This document shows positions 16,891-24,447 of a stretch of DNA of 24,447 nt, in pieces; the stretch's first letter is position 1; each line of letters starts with the position of its first letter. The translations under genes were made by a program, and so were the position numbers. The notes beneath the pieces are model-generated. The model made no database searches. It was not told the DNA's origin and worked only from the letters and a program-made list of their open reading frames with translations. This DNA comes from an uncultured Dysosmobacter sp. (lineage in GTDB: Bacteria > Bacillota > Clostridia > Oscillospirales > Oscillospiraceae): positions 1-24,447 of the forward strand of contig CAKSVQ010000019.1 in NCBI GenBank assembly GCA_934504065.1. The letters run 5' to 3'.

Positions 16891-17151
16891 GCAAAAGTGG
16901 CAGAGCCGCATTCTTAAAAGGTTTGTGCCTCCATGGCCGCACAGCGGCCATGGAGGCACAGTTTATAAAAAAGTCTCGCACAGAGTTTCACGTCCGCAGA
17001 CGTGAAAGTAGTGAAATCCGTGTTCTGCCGCGACATGTGCGTGGCAGAGCACACCTTACGCGGAGCGTGTGTCGAATTGGCCGCATAGCGGCCAACCGAG
17101 GCGCAGAGCGCAGCGAATCCTCTTCGCAAAAGTGGCTTCACCACTTTTGCG
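16891..17151. repeat. Mosaic hairpin repeat element, long copy
   Basis: Gene-free stretch built from consecutive small palindromes. Seen in order: a 17-base fragment at 16891-16907 identical to 19302-19318; a 17-bp perfect stem with 3-base loop (16924-16960); TTTCACGTC-cgca-GACGTGAAA (16986-17007); TCTGCC/GGCAGA (17024-17048); TTGGCCGC-ata-GCGGCCAA (17077-17095); and CGCAAAAGTGG-cttca-CCACTTTTGCG (17125-17151). The block from 16967 and the last hairpin recur at 19248-19327, where about 100 bases of middle hairpins are absent. It resembles REP/MITE-like elements. No transposase is present. Readings across it encode nothing recognisable. Confidence 0.8.
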
Positions 17152-17156
17152 AGAGT

Positions 17157-19247: not shown

Positions 19248-19327
19248 AAAAAGTCTCGCAGAGTTTCACGTCCGCAGACGTGAAAGCAGCGAAACTTCTT
19301 CGCAAAAGTGGCAGAGCCACTTTTGCG
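19248..19327. repeat. Mosaic hairpin repeat element, short copy
   Basis: Second copy of the repeat seen at 16967-17151, in the same orientation. It shows AAAAAGTCTCGCA, the TTTCACGTC-cgca-GACGTGAAA hairpin at 19264-19285, and CGCAAAAGTGGC-aga-GCCACTTTTGCG at 19301-19327. Arms are conserved between copies while loops differ. It also lies just beyond the stop of the DUF6881-like gene and may act as its terminator-like stem. Confidence 0.85.
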
Positions 19328-19333
19328 ACATCT

Positions 19334-23692: not shown

Positions 23693-23727
23693 CGTGCCGC
23701 CGCCTTTCTTCCTTCGGTTTTTTATTG

Positions 23728-23757
23728 AGTATATCATACCGCCGGAGGATACGCCAA
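23728..23757 (-). promoter_or_regulatory. Predicted promoter of the ATC hydrolase-like gene
   Basis: On minus, TTGGCG (23757-23752), 18-base spacer, TATACT (23733-23728) preceded by TGA (extended -10). It overlaps the alternative ATG at 23737, which argues for the GTG start. Confidence 0.55.
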
Positions 23758-23795
23758 CTCTTTCTAAGGATGTAGGGTCTTTAAATATTATAGAA

Positions 23796-23833
23796 ACTCC
23801 CCATGCCGACATCATAATACCGACATGGGGAGT
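23796..23833 (-). terminator. Probable former aspS terminator
   Basis: ACTCCCCATG (23796-23805) pairs with CATGGGGAGT (23824-23833), followed on minus by TTTCTAT. The loop contains a CCGACAT direct repeat. It lies 15 bases past the duplicated aspS stop codon, where a natural aspS terminator would be. Confidence 0.65.
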
Positions 23834-23848
23834 GGTTGTTTGGATATT

Positions 23849-23902
23849 TTACGCTTCCGGTTTTACCAAGGCAATATGGAGCTCATCAAGCTGCTTCTGC
23901 GT
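23849..23902 (-). pseudogene. Duplicated aspS 3' end, 17 codons plus stop
   Basis: Eighteen codons on the minus strand encode [17 protein letters not shown] and a stop, identical in protein to the last 17 residues of the aspS gene at 24076-24447. About ten positions differ, all synonymous, and the stop is TAA instead of TGA. An exact 21-base match remains at 23883-23903 and 24110-24130. Beyond codon 17 the similarity ends abruptly at a 10-bp hairpin. No start codon or ribosome site is present, so it is a remnant of a full aspS copy, not a gene. Confidence 0.85.
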
Positions 23903-23907
23903 GGTTT

Positions 23908-24062
23908 CCCAAAATGGACGGGGCCATTTTGGGAGCCCTGACAAGATAGAAAATGCTCGGGCGAAGTGAATTCGCCCTGCGCCAAGGTTTTGCGGGGCAA
24001 AACGCTTGAACGCGCCGTGGGCGCGGCTCGCCGGAGGCTCGCGCGAAGTCACGCGGGGAAGA
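23908..24062. repeat. Hairpin mosaic between the two aspS ends
   Basis: Consecutive small palindromes: CCCAAAATGG-acgggg-CCATTTTGGG (23908-23933), GGGCGAA-gtgaa-TTCGCCC (23959-23977), GTTTTGC-ggg-GCAAAAC (23987-24003), CGCGCC-gtg-GGCGCG (24011-24025), then a GGCTCGC direct repeat. Sequences differ from the 17-19 kb elements but the design is alike. No gene is seen here. Confidence 0.75.
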
Positions 24063-24075
24063 TGGAATGTGTGTT

Positions 24076-24447
24076 TCAGGCTTCGGGCTTAACGAGGGCG
24101 ATGTGCAGTTCATCAAGCTGCTTCTGCGTGACTTCGCTGGGGGCGGACATCATCACGTCCTGCGCGTTTTTGTTCATGGGGAAGGGGATGATCTCGCGGA
24201 TGGAGTCCTCTCCGGCCAGCAGCATGACCATGCGGTCCACGCCGGGGGCGATGCCCGCGTGAGGGGGTGCGCCATAGCAGAATGCATTGTACATGGCGGG
24301 GAACTTGGCTTTCACATCGTTCTCGCCCAGACGCACCAGCTCAAAGGCCTTGATCATGATCTCGGGGTCATGGTTCCGCACCGCGCCGGAGGAGAGCTCC
24401 ACGCCGTTGCACACCAGATCGTACTGGTCGGCGGTGATGCTCAGGGG
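24076..24447 (-). CDS. aspS: Aspartyl-tRNA synthetase, C-terminal part (cut by window edge)
   Basis: C-terminal 123 residues of a class II synthetase charging tRNA-Asp. The visible part has the AspRS pattern: [19 protein letters not shown], then [23 protein letters not shown] (motif 3 with the ATP-binding Arg), then [28 protein letters not shown] and a C-terminal QLDELHIAL. The start lies beyond the right edge. The gene ends at TGA 24076-24078, with a hairpin mosaic and a second copy of its own last 17 codons downstream. Being on minus, it would be transcribed head-on to replication moving right from the origin. Confidence 0.96.

Follow-up and report, generated by a model that had tools for sequence, protein, structure and literature searches.

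A family of apparently undescribed, protein-free elements at the edges of conserved genes in relatives of Oscillibacter

REP/BIME sequences and MITEs are small, non-coding, palindromic and repeated, and they lie near gene edges, all features that they have in common with the element described here; the target duplications of MITEs are short, at 2–10 bp. In fungal mitochondria, the mORF hybrids of genes such as atp6 of Allomyces and Glomus have as their live end a C-terminal copy brought by an insert, while the native end is left downstream (about 1 kb away for atp6) and is closer to that of relatives; the inserts encode a homing endonuclease ORF (PMC3630166). In E. coli, prophage e14 inserts site-specifically near the end of icd and supplies a replacement end (PMC6379469). 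Long and variable flanking duplications are found with IS1634 and IS1549, which are transposase-encoding insertion sequences of 1.5–2 kb (PMC2266710). Here we describe a family of tiny, protein-free elements at the edges of conserved genes in relatives of Oscillibacter, which is apparently undescribed; we found no description of it in the open-access literature.

The window, by which we mean the whole stretch of 24,447 nt that was analysed, carries a live aspS gene on its minus strand, with a match to the NCBIfam family aspartate--tRNA ligase and a TGA stop codon at 24076–24078. The insert behind this gene holds a copy of a mobile element, about 135 bp long and without an ORF, that consists of a left hairpin, a three-hairpin core and a right hairpin. 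Read in the orientation of the element, the order is gene sequence (X), first copy of the gene edge (D1), spacer, x′, left hairpin, core, right hairpin, second copy of the gene edge (D2) and original downstream DNA. In the window, these features are placed as follows.

24076–24447, minus strand: 3′ part of the live aspS, encoding the AspRS C-terminus (ORF and NCBIfam).
24076–24135 (repeat match 24074–24135), minus strand: D1, the live copy of the gene tail (repeat search).
24126–24137, minus strand: X/D junction in aspS, complementary to x′ (inverted-pair search; helix in the predicted fold).
24043–24054, minus strand: x′, a 12-nt reverse complement of the junction that adjoins the left hairpin (inverted-pair search, fold and covariation).
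24022–24042, minus strand: left hairpin region, between x′ and the core (copy alignment and predicted fold).
23948–24021, minus strand: conserved structured core, R1 (covariance model, 81.8 bits).
23907–23934, minus strand: right hairpin, TCCCAAAATGG..CCATTTTGGGA, the sequence of which varies among copies (sequence and predicted fold).
23849–23906 (repeat match to 23908), minus strand: D2, the second copy of the gene tail, with stop codon TAA at 23849–23851 (repeat search).
23796–23833, minus strand: hairpin or likely terminator beyond D2 (inverted-pair search; same order in empty relatives).

An earlier note on this sequence had reported that the tail of aspS occurs again downstream with the same protein sequence, silent changes, a different stop codon and a likely terminator behind it, and each of these observations was borne out. 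The two tails form a direct repeat of 62 nt with 79% identity and a start-to-start distance of 227 bp; apart from the two codons at the start of the duplication and the stop codon, they show 10 silent differences and no replacement, and a count that includes the junction codons and stop gives 11 silent and 2 replacement changes. The live copy ends in TGA and the second in TAA, and the hairpin at 23796–23833, which is taken as the original aspS terminator, follows the distal tail. An exact 21-mer shared by the tails, also part of that description, lies at 23883–23903 and 24110–24130 and had no counterpart in 100 shuffles; its reading as an integrase att scar is unsupported, and the identity falls within the coding tail that was duplicated. 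The stretch between the tails, about 165 bp, has room for at most about 55 codons. In an ungapped search of 23700–24447, the only inverted pairs of at least 12 nt were the terminator and the pair formed by X and x′. This perfect 12-nt complement between aspS and the insert had escaped notice, as had the insert's nature as a dispersed repeat.

A BLAST search of the first 87 loci recovered related inserts both behind aspS (L004, L005 and L066) and away from it (L084 and L085), together with two weak partial matches (L029 and L087), and a DNA search of the genomes of eight relatives gave matches in five. An alignment of 19 copies contained 24 consensus base pairs, 12 of which were changed on both sides. 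For the core we used a covariance model, R1, based on 28 sequences (the window among them) and 11 base pairs; on the window, it gave one significant match, at 23948–24021, with a score of 81.8 bits that is to be read with the window's inclusion in the model in mind. From the family to which the Dysosmobacter G001 belongs, 61 genomes were scanned, and 21 of them, with G001 included, had matches to R1. Of 196 genomes drawn from the class of G061, 2 had matches, G061 and G053, both already matched in the family scan, although the class scan scored fewer candidates per genome (G061 gave 24 rather than 32 matches) and weak copies were possibly missed. Rfam 15 returned no match at E ≤ 1 in 23700–24200 and none at the gathering threshold in the whole window. 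The aspS ends of L064 and L304 lack the R1 core and have the same duplication arrangement, each with an 11-nt complement, and both carry a second core type that by eye resembles AGGAGxAxCAGCGxAAxGAGCGAG (L064:8322–8790 and L304); a second core family thus seems to use the arrangement too. In L064, this core is present as three tandem copies of 197 bp. Head-to-tail arrays of two to three units of about 160–230 bp, each unit comprising an element and a gene end, were also seen behind one gene at L166, L172, L174 and L169 (G061) and at L186 and L187 (G057).

A long direct duplication flanks 92 of the 117 testable distinct core matches at a local-alignment score of at least 60; the copies studied are the best-scoring matches rather than a random sample, and duplications in arrays may include part of the next unit. 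Duplication lengths range from 38 to 210 nt and are mostly 40–120 nt. About a dozen of the 25 copies without a duplication at this threshold adjoin a terminator, as judged by eye. At L084, L085, L096, L099, L115 and L141, there is no gene-end duplication and the right end of the element adjoins a terminator, and several of these copies adjoin tRNA-like genes; such copies possibly reflect a different mode of insertion.

The duplications have a marked polarity with respect to genes. We considered the 70 duplications in which D2 starts 20–60 nt past the core, abutting the right hairpin, and assigned the coding frame from codon usage, with a score trained on 12 genes of the window; choice of the longest open frame was dropped as unreliable in GC-rich DNA. 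In 66 of the 70, the left edge of D1 lies within coding sequence (8 of these have coding sequence on the right side too); in none does this hold for D2's right edge alone, and in 4 it holds for neither edge. The duplicated edges comprise 57 gene ends, 10 gene starts and 3 that are neither. When 19 of the gene segments were scanned against NCBIfam, 18 matched and L109 did not; since the segments are incomplete, 12 of the 18 matches did not reach the whole-protein cut-off. By best match, the affected gene starts are those of lepA, prfC, mutL, typA, hisS and uvrC, and the affected ends are those of era, ackA, alaS, uvrA, eno and groEL as well as IMP dehydrogenase, D-aminoacyl-tRNA deacylase, enoyl-CoA hydratase, a PhoB-like regulator and, at two loci (one with a weak match), rubrerythrin. 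For aspS itself, 9 of 158 distinct ends have both core and second tail (nine ends have less than 700 bp of contig beyond them), two more of the 158 are the R1-less L064 and L304, and L201 (G023) is an additional case outside this count; three different junction positions are used within the gene. The arrangement is no one-off oddity of an essential gene, since the same architecture recurs at dozens of genes. Among 32 young gene-end copies, 21 have a D1 that ends no more than 6 nt from the stop codon, and in 7 of those 21 the stop codons of D1 and D2 differ; in two others D1 ends at or just past a terminator T-tract, and the other nine comprise six tandem arrays, one copy cut by Ns and two with ends at +44 and +164. 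This pattern suggests that D1 may end at the mRNA 3′ end, a reading that we do not adopt. D1/D2 identity stops near the stop codon at, for example, L104, L110, L112 and L212, which simple target duplication does not explain.

Complementarity between x′ and X is present in about half of the copies. In the 51 of 67 gene-edge copies in which D1 ends at least 5 nt before the core, the longest exact complement was at least 10 nt in 22, compared with 0.2 expected from the junctions of other copies, and at least 12 nt in 15, compared with 0 of 2,550 cross-locus comparisons; it was shorter than 8 nt in 23. When junctions were shifted along the same gene as a control, 9 nt was reached in 1% of 306. The stronger matches cover about −4 to +7 of the junction, and at several loci they start right at the end of D1. 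In the window the helix of x′ with X appears together with the hairpins in the predicted fold, with a z-score of −5.2. Across four aspS loci, three pairs of this helix are changed on both sides; 97.7% of cells are paired, against 18–47% with the partner slid, and 8 of 500 shuffles gave three such pairs, in a comparison that comprises four sequences and a hand-drawn structure and excludes one column pair that fails in L066. An x′ of 10–15 nt is also present at the gene-start loci L103, L116, L145, L158 and L218.

The D2 copies at gene ends are not drifting neutrally. Over 48 non-tandem gene-end loci, D1 and D2 differ by 98 silent and 37 replacement changes, a replacement fraction of 0.27 compared with the 0.53–0.62 (s.d. 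0.04) expected for a drifting D2, whereas seven gene-start loci have 20 silent and 21 replacement changes, as under drift (Fisher p = 0.007 for ends against starts, with changes treated as independent). The proposal that silent-only divergence reflects two functional ends, made from the window alone, therefore holds statistically over the 48 loci. Relatives in which a single aspS end is followed by the hairpin or terminator had been predicted and do exist, as judged by eye and in the close pair formed by the empty L301 and the filled L305, in which D2 and the terminator of L305 match L301 (D2 1.00, D1 0.98). D2 is likewise nearer to the closest empty relative in L201, L004 and L266, while D1 is nearer in L066, L005 (by one base) and the window (0.82 versus 0.78) and L304 is mixed; most of the empty relatives compared are distant, with body identities of 0.91–0.95. 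The L301/L305 pair thus supports the view that D2 may be the native end, but the picture over the eight aspS loci is mixed, and the reading of the window's own D2 as the native end, by analogy with L305, is tentative.

We hold the descriptive part of this account, which comprises the family, its dispersal, the duplications, their polarity, the complementarity of x′ to X, the non-neutral D2 at gene ends and the empty sites, with high confidence. The explanation that we prefer for these observations, about equally likely in our judgement to be right or wrong, is an ORF-less, homing-like element that brings along its own gene-edge copy and finds its site by means of x′. A unit of D1, x′, core and right hairpin would insert at a conserved gene edge, between X and D2, supplying its own edge copy and leaving the native edge outside, so that the gene would stay intact. 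With x′ as the site-recognition sequence, a lineage would reach that gene again in further strains or species, and a trans-acting enzyme working on RNA or single-stranded DNA would mobilise the unit; we infer all of these steps of movement. Homing of this kind would explain the polarity towards genes, the silent divergence, the differing stop codons, the conserved nature of the target genes, the closest relatives at the same gene and the covariation of x′. The earlier note had offered two options, and that of an element with a gene-restoring end fits best, while plain allele replacement without an element is disfavoured. Several observations count against homing: no enzyme that would carry it out was found; filled alleles keep the X–D1 target intact, which would leave the element unprotected from its own targeting; there are copies without x′, copies without a duplication and seven gene-start loci with a neutral-looking D2; and mean identities hardly show fidelity, while the comparison of D1 and D2 with empty relatives is mixed.

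A broader form of this proposal, which we advance tentatively and consider doubtful, is an ORF-less bacterial class of homing elements in which x′, as RNA or single-stranded DNA, would be a programmable guide lying across the cut point and coevolving with the individual target gene, the carried gene-edge copy would avert harm, and the trans-acting enzyme would be shared by at least two core families (R1 and that of L064/L304). Searches for reverse transcriptases and Y1 transposases found no partner enzyme. Reverse transcriptases were present in 8 of 12 element-bearing genomes, and the 12 reverse-transcriptase loci inspected looked heterogeneous and had no core nearby. A Y1 transposase was present in 7 of the 12 and PF01797 gave no match in the other 5, G057 among them, an absence weakened by the draft state of the genomes; the 13 reverse-transcriptase or Y1 loci from the first search round likewise had no core nearby.

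The main rival to homing, which we consider unlikely, is that D1 and D2 are a long target-site duplication, produced by transposition or target-primed reverse transcription with staggered nicks some 40–120 nt apart; x′ would then originate from fold-back synthesis, in which D1, folding back at its free 3′ end, is extended by copying over the other nick before it is joined to the element. Among the copies compared, the best identity between different genes of one genome was 0.82, no recent jumps between genes were seen, and the best same-gene pairs across genomes reached 0.94 (aspS, G023/G148) and 0.85 (aspS, window/G002); mean identities were 0.72 for the same gene, 0.71 for different genes of the same genome and 0.68 for neither, so that gene fidelity is visible in the top pairs and hardly in the means. 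Even so, 10 of the 57 gene-end copies, one of the ten in an array, have a D1 that is 100% identical to D2, which implies that in these cases the duplication is younger than the element at its locus. This fits a target duplication, as do the greater similarity (by eye) of the L305 D1 to its own D2 (79/80) than to D1 of the related L201, the position of the stronger x′ across the junction, in several cases from the end of D1, and the variable duplications of 8–514 bp reported for IS1549 and IS1634 (PMC2266710). A target duplication does not, however, predict the one-sided polarity (66 versus 0), the low replacement fraction at gene ends or the termination of D1 so near the stop codon with differing stops in a third of those cases, and none of the copies compared had a close parental copy in its own genome. 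The idea that x′ is a fresh copy of the target is weakened because same-genome copies turned out to be old, and we keep it within this explanation.

One may also postulate duplication in place, by tandem duplication or slippage at the hairpins followed by concerted evolution of D1 and D2, with no mobility at all. The tandem arrays in L004, L064, G061 and G057 and the lack of recent within-genome dispersal among the copies compared are consistent with this, but the same core at unrelated genes requires dispersal at some time, gene conversion would be expected to leave the replacement fraction unlowered, and the close relatives L301 and L305 differ in being empty and filled; we regard this scenario as improbable. 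Removal at the RNA level is more improbable still: the part of the transcript that extends from D1 up to and including the right hairpin would be excised with x′ as an internal guide-like sequence, X would be joined to D2, and both tails would be used and under selection. An x′ could indeed pair with X–D1 and X–D2 alike, D2 is constrained where the element is in sense (gene ends) and not where it is antisense (gene starts), and the helix folds stably with the hairpins, yet there is no intron match in Rfam, x′ also occurs at gene starts, to which the element lies antisense, and the R1 core is shorter than the known self-splicing introns. Given the dispersed family, it is highly improbable that the second aspS tail is left over from an integrase-type element (as an att scar) or from the replacement of an allele: this reading would fit the silent-only divergence and differing stop codons and has a known precedent in e14 at icd (PMC6379469), but it leaves x′ and the recurrence at dozens of genes unexplained, and the larger integrase-type relatives that the earlier note suggested looking for did not appear in 80 genome loci, where second tails were never more than 550 bp from the first (flanks of at most 8 kb and many shorter, with the window tail peptide as query, so that similar tails were found and diverged ones missed).

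The preferred homing-like element also differs from established classes. Its long flanking duplications and target-complementary x′ set it apart from REP/BIME and MITE sequences; unlike a MITE, the window copy has no terminal inverted repeats of at least 12 nt around it (ungapped search), and the duplications of 38–210 nt are unlike the short ones of MITEs. The Y1 transposase partner of REP/RAYT systems is missing from the five draft genomes without PF01797. Integrative elements of the integrase type differ from the insert of about 165 bp, which has no integrase and, over the 80 loci, no distant second tail, and group I and II introns are set apart by the lack of a match to the catalytic models of Rfam 15. 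As in the fungal mORF hybrids (PMC3630166), the insert would carry a replacement gene end and leave the native end downstream, a reading that the L301/L305 pair and the silent divergence support and for which the eight aspS loci give a mixed picture; unlike those hybrids, the element is bacterial, has hairpins and x′, affects gene starts as well as ends, and is without a homing endonuclease ORF because the stretch between the tails is too short. Whereas e14 is a prophage at one site (PMC6379469), the element occurs at up to tens of sites per genome and its insert has no integrase. With IS1634 and IS1549 (PMC2266710) it shares long variable duplications, but not the gene-edge polarity or x′, and it has no room for a transposase. 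If the homing reading is true, essential genes of common gut-type bacteria have repeatedly been given new ends by geneless elements of about 135 bp, a further independent form of gene-end-carrying insertion beside those of fungal mitochondria and prophages; the covarying guide-like sequence would render the choice of site directly testable, and the many puzzling cases of doubled gene ends and strings of hairpins in such genomes would be accounted for.

A viral origin was rejected, as the 21-mer had no matches in viral contigs and a relative of AspRS was present at only two viral-contig loci. Of the matches to the hairpin part in a phage collection, the two that were read, L084 and L085, are further copies of the family beside tRNA-like genes; both contigs (MT838705.1 and MT837775.1) were deposited as 'Bacteriophage sp.' and resemble bacterial chromosome in the stretches read. 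The window also contains a second intergenic repeat pair, at 16976–17152 and 19254–19328, with repeats of 41 and 43 nt at 86–90% identity; this pair holds a 29-nt palindrome, TCGCAAAAGTGG..CCACTTTTGCGA, and belongs to a separate repeat family.
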